Below are positions 3,634-11,675 of a stretch of 33,098 nt of DNA, one piece after another. The notes under the pieces were generated by a model. It saw only the letters and a list, made by a program, of their open reading frames with translations, had not been told where the DNA came from and made no database searches. The DNA comes from a virus. Positions within the stretch are counted from its first letter, which is position 1. Each line of letters starts with the position of its first letter. A program made the translations under genes and the position numbers. The stretch lies in IMG/VR virus record IMGVR_UViG_3300043395_001176, positions 1-33,098 of that record. One strand, written 5' to 3'.

Positions 3634-4326
3634 ATGGCCATCACCCTTGAGATCGATCAGCAGGGCCTCGTGCAAGCCTCGAGGTGGTCGCAGGCTGTCG
3701 CCAAGCAGCTGCCGTTTGCCACGTCCGTTGCCCTCAATGACGTGGCCTTCAAGGCCCGCACATCGCTGAATGGCGCAACCCGCCAATACTTCCAAGGGCC
3801 CGTCAAGTTCACGCAGACCGCCTTCTTGGTAGACAAGGCCAAGAAGTCCACACTCACCGCCTACGTCTTCGCCAACAACCAGCAAGGCCGCAACAGAGCC
3901 CGCTACCTGCGCTATGGCATCCAAGGCGGGCAGCGTGTAGCCAAAGGCTTTGAGCGCTACTTCGCTGGCGCTGACAACGACGGCACCCTCCCCCCTGGTA
4001 CCACCCTGGTGCCCACCTCCCTGGTCAAGACCACAGACGCAGGCAACGTGTCACTCGCCACGCTGCGATCAATCAGCAAAGGACTGAGCACCACCAACAA
4101 GCGAGGCGGCTTCTTCGTTGGCACACCACGAGGTGCAGGCGACAGACCGCCTGGCATCTATCGCCGCTCACGTGAGCAGCTGTTCCCTTACTTCATCGCA
4201 GCATCAGCAGCACCGCGATACACAGGCCGCTTCCCGATTCAAGACATCGGAGAGAAGATCGTTGCTCGCAACTTCAACGATGCACTCAGCGCTGCGCTCG
4301 ACAAGGCCATCGCGACCGCTCGCTGA
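3634..4326 (+). CDS. Minor tail protein Z / gp10-like virion protein
   Basis: The protein has 230 residues. The N-terminus has the pattern PFATSVALNDVAFKART, typical of gpZ/gp10-like phage neck or tail-completion proteins. It is followed by RYLRYGIQGG, a KGFERY segment and, near the end, PPGIYRRSREQLFPYF and APRYTGRFPI. I recall this ordered set of motifs in larger gpZ-like proteins of other prophages. Such proteins act at the head-tail junction. The position is odd: lambda places Z between the connector and tail-terminator genes, whereas here it precedes the small terminase and is separated from it by 184 non-coding bases. Its C-rich codon use matches the upstream replication genes rather than the terminases. 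Confidence 0.5.
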   Translation: MAITLEIDQQGLVQASRWSQAVAKQLPFATSVALNDVAFKARTSLNGATRQYFQGPVKFTQTAFLVDKAKKSTLTAYVFANNQQGRNRARYLRYGIQGGQRVAKGFERYFAGADNDGTLPPGTTLVPTSLVKTTDAGNVSLATLRSISKGLSTTNKRGGFFVGTPRGAGDRPPGIYRRSREQLFPYFIAASAAPRYTGRFPIQDIGEKIVARNFNDALSAALDKAIATAR

Positions 4327-4510
4327 CGCCGCGCGGGTCCTTCCAAGCCAATACTGTGTGGGTCGTTCGTTCGCACCCGCTTCCGCTAGCGTCAGCCCCC
4401 GAACCTCTCAAACCCATTGCGGCGCAGGGGATCTCAGTAATCTCACCCCAATCCCAGTTTGAGAGTTCAATAATTCCATAGTATTGAACTGAATTAGAGG
4501 CGTTTAACGC
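4327..4510. other. Non-coding interval before the small terminase; candidate cos/packaging region
   Basis: No convincing gene lies here. The interval holds an 8-base palindrome CCGCGCGG (4329-4336), a long-loop inverted repeat CTCTCAAAC (4405-4413) / GTTTGAGAG (4457-4465), and the strong dyad listed at 4464-4490. In lambda-like phages with a GpA terminase, cos lies just upstream of the small-terminase gene. This is therefore the natural place to look for it, but I cannot identify the nick positions. The base-composition skew also flips across this interval. Confidence 0.4.
4459..4490 (+). promoter_or_regulatory. Candidate late promoter with an operator-like dyad
   Basis: TTGAGA (4459-4464) could be a -35 box, with TATTGA (4482-4487) as a weak -10 at 17-base spacing. 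The perfect dyad AGTTCAATA (4464-4472) / TATTGAACT (4482-4490), with 9-base arms and a 9-base spacer, covers the same span, as an operator would. It could instead be a terminase binding site. The small terminase starts 20 bases downstream. Confidence 0.4.
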
Positions 4511-5047
4511 TTGCTAGTCACGTTTAGTGAGTTTGCAGCGATCAAAGGGTGCGCGAAGGGCACGGTTACGGCTGCGAGCAAGGCGCGGATTGCTGCAGCT
4601 GTGGTGGAGAAGGATGGCAAACGCTGGCTGGATCGTGATCTTGCGATTGAGCTATGGGACAAGAACACGAGGGCGACGCACAACAGCAAGGTGCGGCGAG
4701 CTGATCCGATTGAGGTGGAACCACCCCGCGATGCGGCTGAGTTGAAGCGGCGTGTTGAGGGGTTGCCGGATGATGCGATCCCGGATCTGAATGAGAGCCG
4801 TGCGCGGCGTGAGCACTATCAGGCGGAGCTAGCGAAGCTGCAAGTGACGCAGCAGCGTGGTGAGCTGGTGCCTGCTGATGAGGTGAAAAAGGAAGCGTTC
4901 AAGATGGGCCGCAGTGTGCGTGAGGCGCTGGCGAATTTGGCGGACAGGTTGAGCCACCAGCTGGCGGGCGAGACGGATCCGACGGTGATCCATCAGGTGC
5001 TGACGCAGGAGCACCGTGCGGCGCTTGTGGAGCTGTGTGATGGCTGA
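4511..5047 (+). CDS. Terminase small subunit (Nu1-like)
   Basis: This 178-residue protein would recognise the packaging site. Residues 1-50 form a small helix-turn-helix-like segment (FSEFAAIKGCAKGTVTAASK), comparable to the winged-helix end of lambda gpNu1. A charged helical region follows (SRARREHYQAELAKLQVTQQRG), then a C-terminal helical part. The start is TTG at 4511: the frame is closed by TAA at 4505-4507, and AGAGG at 4496-4500 gives a usable ribosome site 10 bases upstream. The gene overlaps the large terminase start by 8 bases, so the two are probably translationally coupled. Codon use switches here to strongly G-rich third positions, unlike the genes before it. Confidence 0.8.
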   Translation: MLVTFSEFAAIKGCAKGTVTAASKARIAAAVVEKDGKRWLDRDLAIELWDKNTRATHNSKVRRADPIEVEPPRDAAELKRRVEGLPDDAIPDLNESRARREHYQAELAKLQVTQQRGELVPADEVKKEAFKMGRSVREALANLADRLSHQLAGETDPTVIHQVLTQEHRAALVELCDG

Positions 5048-6896
5048 TGCGTGGCGTGATGGGTTTTTGGAGGGCCTGCGGCCTGAGCAGCCGCTGACGG
5101 TGAGCGAGTGGGCTGATCGGTATCGGAAGCTGAGCAGCAAGGCGAGCGCTGAGCCGGGCCCATGGCGGACGGATCGGACGCCTTACCTGCGCGAGCCGAT
5201 GGACTGCCTGAGCAGTGAAAGCCCGGTGCAGAGGGTGGTGATGATGTTTGCAGCGCAGACGGGCAAGACGGAGGCCGGCAGCAACTGGCTGGGGTATGTG
5301 ATCGACCATGCGCCGGGGCCGATGCTGTGCGTGCAGCCGACGGTGGAGATGGCGAAGCGGCTGAGTAAGCAGCGGCTCGAGAGCATGATCACGGAGACGC
5401 CGTGCTTGGCGGCCAAGATCGCGCCGGCTCGGAGCCGTGACAGTGGCAACACGATGTTTGCCAAAGAGTATGTGGGCGGAATCATGTTGTTGACCGGGGC
5501 GAACAGTGCCACCGGATTGCGATCAGCGCCGTGTAGGTATTTGTTCTGCGATGAGGTGGATGGCTTTCCCGCTGATGTGGATGGGGAGGGTGACCCGGTG
5601 AGCTTGGCGGAGCGGCGGACGACGACGTTCGCGCGGCGGAAGATCTTGCTCACCAGCACCCCGACCGTGAAGGACTTCAGCCGGATCGAGGCGGAATATC
5701 AACGGAGCGATCAGCGGCGGTTCTATGTGCCGTGCCCATCGTGCGGCGCGATGGAGTGGTTGAAGTGGGGGCAGCTGAAATGGGACGAGGGCAAGCCGGA
5801 GAGCGCGAGGTATCAGTGCGAGCACTGCGGCGAGCGGTTCGCTGAGATGCACAAGCCGGCGATGCTCAGGGGTGGCGAGTGGCGTGCGACAGCACCGAGC
5901 AATGGGCGCACGGCTGGCTTCCATCTGTCGGGGTTGTATAGCCCGCTGGGATGGTGCAGCTGGGGGCAACTGGTGGATGACTTCCTGCGTGCCAAGGGCG
6001 ACGCGCCGGCGTTGAAGTCGTTCGTGAATACGCGGCTGGCTGAGACGTGGGAGGAGGATTACGCGGCAAAGGTGAGCGCCGATGGATTGATGGCGCGGCG
6101 GATGGATTACAAGCCGGGCGTGTGCCCTGCTGGTGTGGTGCTGTTGACGGCTGGCGTTGACGTGCAGGACAACCGGCTAGCGGTGAGTGTGTGGGGTTGG
6201 GGTGAGGGTGAGACCGGATGGCTGGTGTGGCATCAGGAGCTGATGGGCGACCCGACGCAGACGGAGGTATGGGAGCAACTGGATCAGGTGATCGCTACTG
6301 AGTGGGAAACGGAGAGCAAGCGCCACCTGAAGCTGGCGCAGGTGGCGGTGGACTCTGGCGGCCACTGCACGCATGAGGTGTATCGGTACGTGCGTGATCG
6401 CGTGAGCCAAGGCGTGGTGGCGATCAAGGGCAGCAGTAGGCGCAATAGTCCGGCAGTGGGCAAGGGCAGCAAGGTGGATGTGAACTGGCGCGGGCGGGTG
6501 ATCAAGCGTGGTGTGACGCTGTATCAGCTGGGCACCGACACGATCAAGACGACGTTGTTTGGCCGGCTCCGCCATAACGAGACAAAGGGCGGCTTGAACT
6601 TTGGATTGGCTGCTGATGATGAGTACTACCGGCAGCTCACGAGTGAGCGGCAGGCGCTCAGGTATCACCGTGGCTTTCCGATCAGGGAGTGGGTGAAGAA
6701 AGCGGGTGATCGCAATGAAGCGTTGGATTGTGCGGTGTATGGCTATGCGGCGATGTTGATCTATGGGCGGAGGATGAATAAGGCGACGATGTGGGAACAG
6801 TTGAGAGTGCAGTTGGAAGAAGGCAAGAAAGCACCGCTAAGATCGAGGAAGCAACAGCCGGCAGCGGCTGGGCCTGGCTTTGTTGGCAACTGGTAG
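5040..6896 (+). CDS. Terminase large subunit (GpA family)
   Basis: This 618-residue DNA-packaging motor ATPase and nuclease translocates DNA into the prohead. Visible motifs are a Walker A-like AAQTGKTE at residues 71-78, Walker B RYLFCDEVDG around 166-175, a zinc-binding CPSC (232-235) paired with CEHC (260-263), and a nuclease-type GVDVQD near 372-377. Length and motif order match lambda gpA-type terminases, which make cos cuts. A GTG at 5016 would extend the frame. ATG at 5040 is preferred because the family N-terminus (WRDGFLEGLRPEQPLTVSEW) begins there. The gene overlaps the small subunit by 8 bases. Codons are G-rich throughout. Confidence 0.95.
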   Translation: MADAWRDGFLEGLRPEQPLTVSEWADRYRKLSSKASAEPGPWRTDRTPYLREPMDCLSSESPVQRVVMMFAAQTGKTEAGSNWLGYVIDHAPGPMLCVQPTVEMAKRLSKQRLESMITETPCLAAKIAPARSRDSGNTMFAKEYVGGIMLLTGANSATGLRSAPCRYLFCDEVDGFPADVDGEGDPVSLAERRTTTFARRKILLTSTPTVKDFSRIEAEYQRSDQRRFYVPCPSCGAMEWLKWGQLKWDEGKPESARYQCEHCGERFAEMHKPAMLRGGEWRATAPSNGRTAGFHLSGLYSPLGWCSWGQLVDDFLRAKGDAPALKSFVNTRLAETWEEDYAAKVSADGLMARRMDYKPGVCPAGVVLLTAGVDVQDNRLAVSVWGWGEGETGWLVWHQELMGDPTQTEVWEQLDQVIATEWETESKRHLKLAQVAVDSGGHCTHEVYRYVRDRVSQGVVAIKGSSRRNSPAVGKGSKVDVNWRGRVIKRGVTLYQLGTDTIKTTLFGRLRHNETKGGLNFGLAADDEYYRQLTSERQALRYHRGFPIREWVKKAGDRNEALDCAVYGYAAMLIYGRRMNKATMWEQLRVQLEEGKKAPLRSRKQQPAAAGPGFVGNW

Positions 6897-7465: not shown

Positions 7466-9045
7466 TGGGATTGCGGACGCGGCTATTCAAGGCGATGGGT
7501 TTTGAGCCGATGCGGCCACGTGCGCGGGCGTATCAGGGCGCAAGGGTTAGCCGGCTCACGGCTGACTGGGTGACAAGCGGCACGAGTGCCGACAGCGAAA
7601 TCAAGAGCAGCTTCAAGGCGCTGCGCAATCGTGCGCGTCAGCTGTGCCGTGACAACGACTATGCGCGGCAAGCGTTGCGGAGCATCCAGAACAATGTGAT
7701 TGGGCACGGCATCAAGCACCAGTCGCAGGTGCGGATGCTGCGTGGCGGCCGGTTGGATGAGGCGATCAACGGCCAGATCCACGAGGCATGGGAACGGTGG
7801 ATGCACAAGAGCCGCTGTGATGTGAGCGGGCTGCTGGGCTTCCATGATATGGAGCGCCTGCTATGCCGCAGCTTGGCGGAGAGCGGTGAGGTGTTCGTGC
7901 GGATGATCCGCAAGCCGTTTGGTGATTCGCGTGTGCCGTTCGCGCTGCAGGTGCTCGAGGCTGACTACCTGATCGACGACGACATTCCGCAGGCCAAGGA
8001 AGGCAACACGGTGCGGATGGGCATTGAGGTCGATAGCTACCTGCGGCCGCAGGCGTACCACTTCTACGCCAACCACCCTGGCGACACGTATGCGGGCAAC
8101 CCACGCACAAATGGGCGGCGTGTGCGTGTGCCTGCTGATGAGTGCATACATCTTTTCCTGCCTGAGCGCCCCGGCCAGACACGAGGAGTCACTTGGTTCG
8201 CCTCGGCACTGATGCGGCTGCACATGCTGCAAGGTTATGAGGAGGCCGAGGTGGTGCGGGCCAGGGCGAGCAGTGCGCTGATGGGATTCATCCAATCGCC
8301 TGAGGGTGAGCTGATTGGTGATGAGGTGTATGAGAACGAGCGCGTGAGCGATTTCCAGCCTGGTGTGTTCAAGTATCTGGCGCCAGGCGAAAGCGTGACG
8401 GTGCCGGATCTGAATGCACCGGACGGCCAGCTGGAACCATTCACGCGTTCGATGCTGCGTGCTGTGGCGGCTGGCGTTGGGGTGAGCTTCGAGAGCATTA
8501 GCAAGAACTTCTCAGAGAGCAACTACAGCAGCAGCCGGCTGAGCCTGCTTGAGGAGCGCGATACGTACAAGGTGCTGCAGCGGTTCTTCATCGAGAACTT
8601 CCACCAGACGGTGTTTGAGAACTGGCTCGAGATGGCGGTGCTGAGCGGTGAGCTGAACTTGCCTGCATATGAGACAAACCCGGACCGCTACCGCGCCAGC
8701 CGCTGGATTCCACGCAGCTGGGAGTGGGTGGACCCGCAGAAGGAAGTGAATGCCTACAAGGATGCGGTGCGATGTGGCTTCAAGACATTGGGCCAGGTGA
8801 TCAGCGAGCAGGGTGGCGATCTCGATGATGTGCTGATGGCGCGTCAGGCTGAGCTGGCGATGTTGGATGAGATGGATATTGTTCTCGACACGGATCCCAG
8901 TGAGGTGAATGCTGGCGGTGGTTCGCAGCCTGCTGTGACGATGGGCGGCCAGCCGGCGTTTGAGGATACGGAACCGCCGATGAATGAAGAGGAATACGAA
9001 GAGGAATCAGTTCTCGAGGATCCGCTCGAAGGGCCTGAGGACTGA
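7465..9045 (+). CDS. Portal protein (lambda gpB family)
   Basis: This 526-residue protein would form the dodecameric ring at one capsid vertex through which DNA enters and leaves. The N-terminus (RVSRLTADWVTSGTSADSEI, then LRNRARQLCRDNDYARQAL) and the following IQNNVIGHGI segment are characteristic of the lambda-type portal family. The C-terminus is strongly acidic (EEEYEEESVLEDPLEGPED), as is common in portals. It starts with ATG at 7465 overlapping the gpW stop, and its own stop overlaps the next start by one base. No break or frameshift is seen. Confidence 0.95.
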   Translation: MGLRTRLFKAMGFEPMRPRARAYQGARVSRLTADWVTSGTSADSEIKSSFKALRNRARQLCRDNDYARQALRSIQNNVIGHGIKHQSQVRMLRGGRLDEAINGQIHEAWERWMHKSRCDVSGLLGFHDMERLLCRSLAESGEVFVRMIRKPFGDSRVPFALQVLEADYLIDDDIPQAKEGNTVRMGIEVDSYLRPQAYHFYANHPGDTYAGNPRTNGRRVRVPADECIHLFLPERPGQTRGVTWFASALMRLHMLQGYEEAEVVRARASSALMGFIQSPEGELIGDEVYENERVSDFQPGVFKYLAPGESVTVPDLNAPDGQLEPFTRSMLRAVAAGVGVSFESISKNFSESNYSSSRLSLLEERDTYKVLQRFFIENFHQTVFENWLEMAVLSGELNLPAYETNPDRYRASRWIPRSWEWVDPQKEVNAYKDAVRCGFKTLGQVISEQGGDLDDVLMARQAELAMLDEMDIVLDTDPSEVNAGGGSQPAVTMGGQPAFEDTEPPMNEEEYEEESVLEDPLEGPED

Positions 9046-11675
9046 TGGCAACTGTTGCCGGCACTGAGGTTGACCTGATGCCTACTGAAGGCATGAGGGA
9101 AGAGGCGCAGCGGTATCGCGATTGGAAGGCTGATGGCAAAGCAGGTGGCACTGAGGTTGCCGCGGCCAGGTCGCGTCAGATCCTGAGCGGTGATGAGTTA
9201 TCACCTGACACAGTGATCACGATGGCGGCATGGTTCGCCCGCCATGAGGTTGATAAGCAAGGCGAGGGATTCAGCCCCGGTGAGGATGGCTATCCATCAG
9301 CCGGTCGCGTTGCATGGGCCGCATGGGGCGGTGATGCTGGGCAGAGTTGGGCGAATGAGAAGGCGGATAGAATCAAGGCATTGCAGGATAGACAAATGGA
9401 AGAGGCGCGCCCTTATCCAAATGAACATGCCGCGAGGTTGACTGATCCCGATCAGTACGACGAACTGCGCCGGGAGAATGGCGCCGGCGGTGAAGGGATT
9501 GATTTCATCTACGGAATAAAGGAAGGCGAGAGCGAGATTCAGGCAGTGCGGTTTGACGCGCAGCAATTCACGCCATCCGAAGCGCGTGATTGGCTGAGTG
9601 AGCACGAGATGGATCCGATCATGTTTGAGGAGGCAACAGGCGAGCAGCGCGTGCTGCGTGCTGAACCTGATGAGCTTTCAGAGGGTGACTTTGTGCAGTG
9701 GGATTCGAGCGGTGGCACTGCCCGCGGCCGGATCGAGCATGTAATGCGCGAGGGCACGCTGGGCGTACCCGGCACTGAGTTCAGCATTGAAGCCAGCGCT
9801 GATGATCCGGCTGCATTGATTCGGATCTACAGCGAGGGCGAGGATGGATGGGAAGCCACCGAGACACTGGTGGGCCATAAATTCTCGACGCTGCGCAAGA
9901 TCGCTGAGCTGCGTGCGATGCCCGGCATCGGGCGGCACCAACGCGCTGAGATCACAACCTTCGATGAGGTTGAAGATCGCACCTATGAGTTTCCTTTCAG
10001 CTCTGAGTATCCCGTTGCCCGTTACTTCGGCAATGAGATCCTGAGCCACGAGGGCAATGCCGCTGATCTCAGTCGCCTGAATGATGGCGCACCGCTGCTG
10101 TTCAACCACAACCCTGATCGTGTGATTGGTGTTGTGGAGCGTGCATACATCGATGGCAAACGTCGCCGCGGTTATGCACGTGTGCGGTTCAGCCGCAATC
10201 CATTCGCTCAGGAAGTCCTGAACGATGTAAAGGATGGCGTTCTTCGGAATGTCTCCTTTGGCTACTCCATCGACAAAATGGAGGAGCGCGGCAGCGGTGA
10301 CTTTGTTGCCACTGCCTGGTCTCCTTATGAGGTTTCTGTTGTCTCGGTGCCGGCTGATCCCGGCGTCGGGATCGGCAGATCCTTAGAGGCCGAGCAAGCT
10401 GCCTCGGCAGCACCTACACCTGATCCCATTCCTGCAATGGAAAACACCACCCCTGATCTGGCAGTGGTGCGGGCCGAAGCCGCTGAGGCTGAGCGCTCCC
10501 GCATCGCTGGCATTTCTGCACTGACCGAAAAGCACGGTATGGCCGATCTCGGCCGCCAGCTGATCGAGTCTGGTCGTTCTATCGACGAGGCCCGCGCTGC
10601 TGTGCTCGACAACCTCGACATCAAACAGGAGCCTGTGAACATGAGCGCCGCTGAAATCGGCCTGACTGAGAAGGAGAGCCGCAGCTTCTCCTTCATGCGT
10701 GCCATTAACTATCTGGCCAACCCGACCGACCGCGCTGCCCGCGAGGCTGCTGCATTCGAGATCGAGGCATCTGAAGCTGCTGCTGCAAAGCTCGGCCGTC
10801 AGTCCCGCGGCATCACCATCCCCCAGGATGTGCTGCGCCGTGACCTGAACGTCGGTGCTGCAACCGCCGGCGGCAACCTGGTTGCCACTGAGCTGGATGC
10901 TGGCAGCTTCATCGATCTGCTGCGCAATGCCTCGGCTCTGGATCAGGCTGGCGCCACTGTGCTGACCGGCCTTACCGGCAACGTGGCCATTCCCCGTCAG
11001 TCGGGGGCGGGGACCGCTTATTGGGTTGCTGAATCCGGTGCTCCCACCGAGTCGCAGCAAACCGTGGATCAGGTGAGCCTGACTCCTAAGACCGTGGCTG
11101 CCTTCACTGACTACAGCCGCCGCCTGATGATCCAGTCCTCCATCGATGTGGAGAACATGGTGCGCACCGACTTGGCTCGTGTGCTGGCACTCAAGATCGA
11201 TCTGGCTGGCCTCTATGGCACCGGCTCCAACGGTGAGCCCCTCGGCCTGAAGCTGACCACCGGCATCGGCACCGAAGACTTCGCCGCTGATACCCCTACC
11301 TTCGCTGAGGTGGTGGCACTTGAGAGCGACGTGGCAACCGCCAACGCACTGCTCGGCAACCCCGTCTACCTGATGAACGCTGCCATGCGCGGCGGCCTCA
11401 AGACCAAAGCCAAGGACGCAGGTTCCGGCATGTTCGTCATGGAAGGCAATGAAGTGAACGGCTATCAGGGTGTGCTGTCCAACCAAGTCGCCTCTGGCGA
11501 TCTGTGGTTTGGCAACTTCGCTGACCTGATCATTGGCTACTTCTCCGGCCTGGATCTGATGGTGGATCCCTACACCAACAGCACCTCCGGCACCGTGCGC
11601 GTGGTGGCTATGCAGGATGTGGACATTGCCGTCCGTCACCCTGAATCCTTCAGCCGCGGCAACAACACCCTCTGA
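9045..11675 (+). CDS. Fused prohead protease and major capsid protein with extra N-terminal modules
   Basis: One 876-residue frame carries several modules. Residues 1-110 are an XkdF-like charged region (PSAGRVAWAAWGGDAGQSW). Residues 120-200 are a second small conserved region (DFIYGIKEGESEIQAVRFD). Residues 210-285 resemble a small beta-barrel/Tudor-like domain (EGDFVQWDSSGGTARGRIEH). Residues 300-445 form an S78/HK97-type prohead protease, with candidate catalytic His355 in LLFNHNP and Ser404 in RNVSFGYS. Residues 465-550 are a helical scaffold-like delta domain. Residues 560-876 are an HK97-fold major capsid protein (AYWVAESGAPTESQQ, LYGTGSNGEPLGL, DVDIAVRHPESF). An in-frame ATG at 10437 (residue 465) could start separate capsid synthesis, but I see no good ribosome site. 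Codon use becomes C-rich in the capsid part. Confidence 0.88.
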   Translation: MATVAGTEVDLMPTEGMREEAQRYRDWKADGKAGGTEVAAARSRQILSGDELSPDTVITMAAWFARHEVDKQGEGFSPGEDGYPSAGRVAWAAWGGDAGQSWANEKADRIKALQDRQMEEARPYPNEHAARLTDPDQYDELRRENGAGGEGIDFIYGIKEGESEIQAVRFDAQQFTPSEARDWLSEHEMDPIMFEEATGEQRVLRAEPDELSEGDFVQWDSSGGTARGRIEHVMREGTLGVPGTEFSIEASADDPAALIRIYSEGEDGWEATETLVGHKFSTLRKIAELRAMPGIGRHQRAEITTFDEVEDRTYEFPFSSEYPVARYFGNEILSHEGNAADLSRLNDGAPLLFNHNPDRVIGVVERAYIDGKRRRGYARVRFSRNPFAQEVLNDVKDGVLRNVSFGYSIDKMEERGSGDFVATAWSPYEVSVVSVPADPGVGIGRSLEAEQAASAAPTPDPIPAMENTTPDLAVVRAEAAEAERSRIAGISALTEKHGMADLGRQLIESGRSIDEARAAVLDNLDIKQEPVNMSAAEIGLTEKESRSFSFMRAINYLANPTDRAAREAAAFEIEASEAAAAKLGRQSRGITIPQDVLRRDLNVGAATAGGNLVATELDAGSFIDLLRNASALDQAGATVLTGLTGNVAIPRQSGAGTAYWVAESGAPTESQQTVDQVSLTPKTVAAFTDYSRRLMIQSSIDVENMVRTDLARVLALKIDLAGLYGTGSNGEPLGLKLTTGIGTEDFAADTPTFAEVVALESDVATANALLGNPVYLMNAAMRGGLKTKAKDAGSGMFVMEGNEVNGYQGVLSNQVASGDLWFGNFADLIIGYFSGLDLMVDPYTNSTSGTVRVVAMQDVDIAVRHPESFSRGNNTL

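Follow-up and report, generated by a model that had tools for sequence, protein, structure and literature searches.

What does a phage make from a reading frame that carries a prohead protease and a capsid protein in one piece? The question is raised by an aquatic virus, IMG/VR virus record IMGVR_UViG_3300043395_001176, analysed here over its full 33,098 nucleotides (positions 1 to 33,098, hereafter the window). One open frame at 9045-11675 (like all features below, on the plus strand) encodes 876 amino acids in 876 codons (94.5 kDa), and its ATG overlaps the stop codon of the portal gene (TGATG). The original prediction had offered two ways to understand this frame: giant copies that undergo massive self-cleavage, or a capsid part translated on its own from an internal start at 10437. 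We consider it very likely that the frame yields two nested products, with initiation at methionine 465 (M465) supplying the bulk scaffold-capsid precursor and the long form being a minor, protease-carrying protein. The sequence evidence for such an internal start is strong and comprises a conserved start codon, synonymous constraint, a step in codon usage, a Shine-Dalgarno sequence or covarying hairpin, and the gene boundary of split relatives; that both products are made, their ratio, their co-assembly and their cleavage are what we infer.

The S78 prohead protease domain (residues 298-445, 9936-10379) is delimited by Pfam, invariant residues and AlphaFold. Peptidase_S78 (PF04586) matches residues 326-441 (E 2e-10, 41.3 bits against a cutoff of 21), and His355 (10107), Ser404 (10254) and Glu429 (10329) are invariant across 48 aligned relatives; the histidine and serine proposed earlier as candidate active-site residues thus stand as predicted catalytic ones. 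The AlphaFold model places the protease domain at 298-433, followed by a disordered linker (438-469), scaffold helices (472-583; 10458-10793), a second disordered stretch (600-619) and the HK97 fold, with M465 falling in the linker between protease and scaffold helices. Phage_capsid (PF05065) covers residues 609-871 (E 9e-43), and the best Protein Data Bank (PDB) match of the capsid fold in Foldseek is the R4C capsid (8GTA, E 7e-21), HK97 heads also being matched. The scaffold-like segment and HK97-fold capsid that had been read from the letters were therefore borne out by Pfam, AlphaFold and Foldseek. According to its structure paper, the R4C virion has T=7 geometry and 415 capsid proteins; these copies are assigned to an open reading frame of 629 amino acids, of which 268 residues are modelled, and neither a protease nor cleavage is mentioned. 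This R4C frame (L092, 2920-4809) has 629 codons, and the solved 268-residue chain begins at the equivalent of window residue 609. Together with Pfam and Foldseek, the chain defines the mature HK97-fold part of the window's protein as residues 609-876 (10869-11672, 28.0 kDa). Since the solved virion model holds only the last 268 of 629 residues, the S78 protease is expected to cleave the scaffold segment off.

The codon of M465 (ATG, 10437-10439) opens a predicted nested gene for a scaffold-capsid precursor of 412 amino acids and 43.4 kDa (10437-11675), to which constraint, start codon and codon step all point. This ATG is invariant in all 56 kept window-clade sequences, and in the proteins of all 17 isolates, the window included, an in-frame methionine follows the protease motif VGxGR within the hypervariable linker. 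With the internal start taken as the first ATG at least 8 codons past VGxGR, a rule that gives no clear answer for a few loci (such as L102, L116, L123, L154 and L181), the linker start codon over 232 loci is ATG in 226 and GTG in the other 6. When the loci are clustered at 75%, a start codon stands at the boundary in 41 of 41 clusters (38 ATG, 3 GTG), compared with an ATG in 65% of control windows elsewhere. Where the aligned methionine is missing, as happens in S-LBS1/S-CBS-type and related loci, its place is taken by GTG in five cases out of five (L242, L243, L250, L267 and L270). Another candidate internal start, M533 (10641) with AGGAG nearby, was dropped because constraint, codon step and conserved codons point to M465.

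Two kinds of signal precede this start codon. Phages of heterotrophic bacteria and metagenomic relatives carry a Shine-Dalgarno sequence ahead of it, as exemplified by the isolates R4C (GGAGGACGCA-ATG), CRP-821 (AAAGGAGTGATCCC-ATG), phiHAP-1 (GAGGATCGGAA-ATG) and ep3 (GAGGATTCACGA-ATG) and by the loci L174 (AAGGAGATAAAA-ATG) and L272 (AAGGAGGTCACC-ATG). Over the 31 clusters of this type, Shine-Dalgarno strength at the internal start has a mean rank of 0.17 among in-frame methionines and is the strongest (z -6.3). The window instead displays an RNA hairpin, GCUGC-CUCG-GCAGC (10398-10411), 25 nt upstream of the ATG. Of the 155 loci that lack a Shine-Dalgarno sequence, 141 have a hairpin of this shape (5-bp stem, 4-nt loop) in codon phase at a distance of exactly 25 or 28 nt upstream; of the 77 with a Shine-Dalgarno sequence, 4 do, so that the two signals are largely mutually exclusive. 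Four loci (L258-L260 and L270) combine the hairpin (ACGGC/GCCGU) with a Shine-Dalgarno-like GAGG or GGAG, which suggests a switch between the two initiation signals.

The stem covaries across cyanophage-type relatives, a label that rests on three isolates. Its forms include GCUGC/GCAGC, GCGGC/GCCGC, GCGGC/GUCGC, ACGGC/GCCGU, GCCGC/GCGGC and GCGAC/GUCGC. Among 21 distinct hairpins all 105 cells pair, a percentage favored by the fact that the set was picked partly for pairing, and both partners change in three of the five pairs. Scored for covariation, the stem reaches 0.291; shuffles give 0.118, and sliding the stem gives no more than 0.091. Because codon resampling of the alanine-rich protein sequence produces the hairpin in about a third of cases, no single instance is remarkable; it is the constancy across loci that is. 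About half of the gene starts of this genome are without a Shine-Dalgarno sequence, no hairpin of the kind stands 25-28 nt ahead of any of the 30 others examined, and an Rfam search with the hairpin returned no relevant family.

The same region is extremely constrained at synonymous sites. In a codon alignment of 56 non-redundant window-clade homologs (mean nucleotide divergence 17%), synonymous change at codons 452-486 (10398-10502) falls to 16% of expectation (observed/expected 0.16, z -11.7), the deepest such dip of the whole frame, while the codons immediately upstream of the hairpin vary freely. Synonymous change also dips around the homologous start of the CRP-406 clade (z -5.7 over 15 sequences) and of the S-CBS clade (z -9.1 over 24), and the dip is weak in relatives of CRP-811 (z -3.0). 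A further hairpin is predicted in the window just 3' of the internal ATG (CACCAC...GTGGTG, 10445-10469), within the constrained region. Codon usage also changes here. Over residues 301-608, which were kept out of training, a log-odds score trained on residues 1-300 against 609-876 steps up from about -0.3 to a capsid-like +0.3; the best changepoint is residue 467 (t 6.3), just two codons past M465. An earlier scan of the window alone had located this step at residue 404 (t 5.6); the scan across the clade has more power and was trained differently. Relative to the internal start, the step lies at +2 codons in the window clade, -8 in the CRP-406 clade, -1 in that of CRP-821 (three sequences), +2 in the S-CBS clade and +20 in CRP-811 and its relatives. 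It thus falls at or near the internal start, and neither at the protease start nor at the mature capsid boundary.

Relatives in which the genes are separate point to the same or a nearby position. Faecalibacterium phage FP_Epona (L290, 2983-5119) has the homologous protease and scaffold segment in two genes, joined to a different capsid family (Phage_capsid_4). Its protease gene is 43% identical to residues 311-448 and is followed by a stop, AGGAGGT and the ATG of the capsid gene, in which a stretch near the N-terminus is homologous to part of the window's scaffold segment (E 4e-10); scaffold and capsid have recombined in this phage. Cellulophaga phage phi39:1 has a separate protease gene of 200 amino acids and a capsid gene of 439, a length that fits the predicted nested products of 412-470 amino acids. 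In both phages the boundary between protease and capsid genes lies at or near the position of the internal start. Outside this family, Bordetella phage PBb002 (L291, 2875-4965) fuses an S78 protease to a gpT-type capsid, and AAAGGGGAAGGT precedes an internal ATG in that fusion (M218 of a frame of 697 codons, stop included). Nested starts may thus have arisen in other fusions too.

Could all capsid subunits nevertheless be made at full length, with the N-terminal 608 residues serving as scaffold and being lost through massive self-cleavage? The frame is open throughout, its catalytic residues are invariant, and the mature R4C chain is without the N-terminal part, all of which would suit such a scheme. 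At solid-protein density, however, the window's 66.6-kDa N-terminal part in 415 copies would fill 0.86-1.16 of a T=7 procapsid whose interior has a radius of 19-21 nm, a value that we assume from T=7 procapsids generally and from which the window's capsid may differ in size. The same number of copies of the nested product's 15.4-kDa scaffold would take up 0.20-0.27 of this interior. At the assumed radius 415 full-length copies would overfill the procapsid, and because some 86-116% of the interior would be taken, self-cleavage of giant copies cannot cover all subunits. It would also leave the conserved start codon, the synonymous constraint, the covarying hairpin and the codon-usage step unexplained, and we regard it as very improbable. 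Of the two alternatives in the original prediction, internal initiation at 10437 is hence strongly supported, down to the exact codon, while massive self-cleavage does not suffice.

A product that begins at M465 might also be translated from a separate capsid mRNA, generated by an internal promoter or by RNA processing, with the hairpin protecting the new 5' end. The stable hairpin and the unstructured leader after it would suit a processed transcript, and an internal promoter is what herpesviruses use at UL26/UL26.5. Nevertheless, the codons just upstream of the hairpin vary freely and relatives of the Shine-Dalgarno type have a ribosome-binding signal instead, which makes a separate mRNA unlikely; an internal promoter in particular was rejected, as no sigma-70-like promoter was found at 9000-10600. 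We give least credence to the idea that there is no internal initiation, and that the region instead reflects pausing during translation or a site where modules were joined by recombination, the codon step being a relic of an old fusion. Relatives do exchange modules, and another boundary between modules has a synonymous dip of its own (codons 107-118). Yet neither a pause nor a joint would account for compensatory changes in the hairpin, the restriction to ATG or GTG, the fixed spacing of 25 or 28 nt to the start codon, or the near exclusion between hairpin and Shine-Dalgarno sequence.

Several observations weigh against internal initiation at M465 all the same. The window has no Shine-Dalgarno sequence at this codon, and S-CBS and S-LBS1 likewise lack one at theirs. 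Where the sequence is present, per-site synonymous shuffles of its strength are mostly not significant and at best modestly so. The ep3/Persinger clade displays no synonymous dip at the internal start, and its codon step lies at +20 codons. Sequences within a clade are related and not independent, so that the z-scores overstate independence, and part of the codon-usage step could go back to an ancient gene fusion.

With two nested products as the favored reading, head assembly might proceed as follows. Translation from 9045, coupled to that of the portal gene, would provide a minor 95-kDa subunit with accessory modules and the S78 protease, while translation from M465 would provide the bulk 43-kDa scaffold-capsid precursor. 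Because both forms share the same scaffold and capsid domains, they would be expected to co-assemble, and the long form would thereby carry protease and modules into the procapsid interior at low copy number. The protease would then remove the scaffold near residue 609.

At this second dip (codons 107-118, 9363-9400) synonymous change is again low (observed/expected 0.24, z -9), and codon 118 in the window clade is either ATG (20) or GTG (35), never another valine codon. The stretch GATAGAATCAAGGCA includes a -10-like TAGAAT. The dip could reflect another internal start, a promoter or a joint left by recombination. We tentatively entertain a joint proposal, which we hold to be possible though doubtful: that the hairpin, with its fixed distance of 25 or 28 nt, covarying stem and G-poor leader, recruits ribosomes independently of a Shine-Dalgarno sequence to a cyanosiphovirus capsid start inside another gene, and that a nested start at codon 118 gives a third product without module 1.

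The identity proposed for the N-terminal modules found no support. XkdF membership, suggested for two of them in the original prediction, was rejected, as Pfam gave no XkdF (PF14550) match at E<=1 and PHROG none of that name; nor did a PDB comparison of the AlphaFold model for residues 1-299 give any significant match (E<=0.001). Module 1 (residues about 9-109, 9069-9371) matches phrog_2859, a family of unknown function. It is also present on prohead proteases, on the portal of a haloarchaeal virus and on minor head proteins. Module 2 (residues about 122-200, 9408-9644) was recognized by comparison of relatives and, among the phage records searched, is seen only within this capsid-fusion family. 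The Tudor-like small barrel (residues 214-260, 9684-9824) did hold up, by a narrow margin, as Hva1_TUDOR (PF11160) scores 26.4 bits there against a cutoff of 24.1. L016, L020 and several of L061-L076 have no module 1, L077, L080, L081 and L086 have no module 2, and S-LBS1 has none of the modules. The modules are interchangeable among relatives, and they look like accessory domains of a protease-bearing head protein. In L059 (frame at 4001-6712), a cysteine-rich insert (CSNCAFY...C...C) at about residues 230-300 replaces the Tudor barrel and weakly matches high-potential iron-sulfur protein (PF01355, E 0.14).

The full-length frame of modules, S78 protease, scaffold and capsid, supported by Pfam and PHROG, was confirmed at its exact coordinates. 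Most of the 80 IMG/VR relatives retrieved are uninterrupted; the 876-codon frame is intact in dozens of independent contigs, including most sister contigs, and the protein encoded on the 37,426-bp contig L007 is identical over all 876 residues. The fusion as a product of frameshift or sequencing error, which would have spoken against it, is thereby ruled out. Stops between modules in sister genomes, the other such possibility, do occur, but rarely: L014 has one stop at codon 51, L084 has frameshifts, and in Roseobacter phage CRP-823 (L004, 3980-6908) a frameshift splits module 1 from the protease-capsid frame, while its sister CRP-821 is intact. These are exceptions, that of CRP-823 being either a sequencing error or a tolerated loss.

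Protease-capsid fusions as such are already known, as had been noted from the start. The PHROG 617 family ('major head protein'), which includes isolates, covers residues 304-875 (E 6e-170), that is, protease, scaffold and capsid. The layout is shared by S-CBS3 and S-CBS1 (both over essentially their whole length) and by the CRP roseophages, the N-terminal modules also being present in S-CBS1, S-CBS3 and CRP-811, and S-LBS1, RcRhea and R4C have the same fusion without some or all of them. A scan of viral contigs with the R4C protein yielded no relatives. If the two-product reading is true, a large phage family that is abundant in the environment has its "major capsid protein" annotated with the wrong N-terminus: the nested product of 410-470 amino acids would be the real capsid precursor, and the annotated protein a rare protease-bearing subunit. 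This would account for how a fused protease can be kept at low copy number, which the fusion annotation leaves open, would widen the use of nested genes in head assembly from the scaffold to the capsid, and would point to a covarying RNA element for translation starts without a Shine-Dalgarno sequence in cyanophages. In the searchable literature, which covers few subscription papers, no account of an internal start in such fusions was found; this does not prove that none exists.

How, then, does the window compare with known systems? Like the PHROG 617 fusions (S-CBS1/3, S-LBS1, RcRhea, R4C, ep3, phiHAP-1), it has S78 protease, scaffold and HK97 capsid in this order and in one frame; all members examined have an internal start codon and are annotated as a single capsid protein without one, and the window has the largest module set among the Synechococcus relatives examined (876 amino acids versus 836 and 631). 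The same nested arrangement most likely recurs across this large phage family, as far as sequence comparison can tell. Phage HK97 makes its gp4 protease and its gp5 precursor of delta domain plus capsid from two separate genes; the window has an S78-type protease and a scaffold-capsid precursor as well, but in one frame, and FP_Epona and phi39:1 represent the HK97-like split state in nearer relatives. The herpesvirus UL26/UL26.5 pair consists of in-frame nested protease-scaffold and scaffold-only products, the short one being without capsid protein and arising from an internal promoter, whereas the signal in the window looks translational. In phage lambda, the C-terminal part of protease gene C is also made separately, as Nu3, from an in-frame internal start. 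Phage Mu produces its scaffold Z in the same way within protease gene I (PMC4378225). The window resembles both in having an in-frame internal start, with a predicted initiation signal, in a protease-bearing frame; in lambda and Mu the nested product is scaffold alone and the capsid a separate gene, whereas here the nested frame runs on through the capsid domain. The arrangement would accordingly seem to be a variant of the strategy of C/Nu3 and I/Z, and not a member of that class by strict definition.

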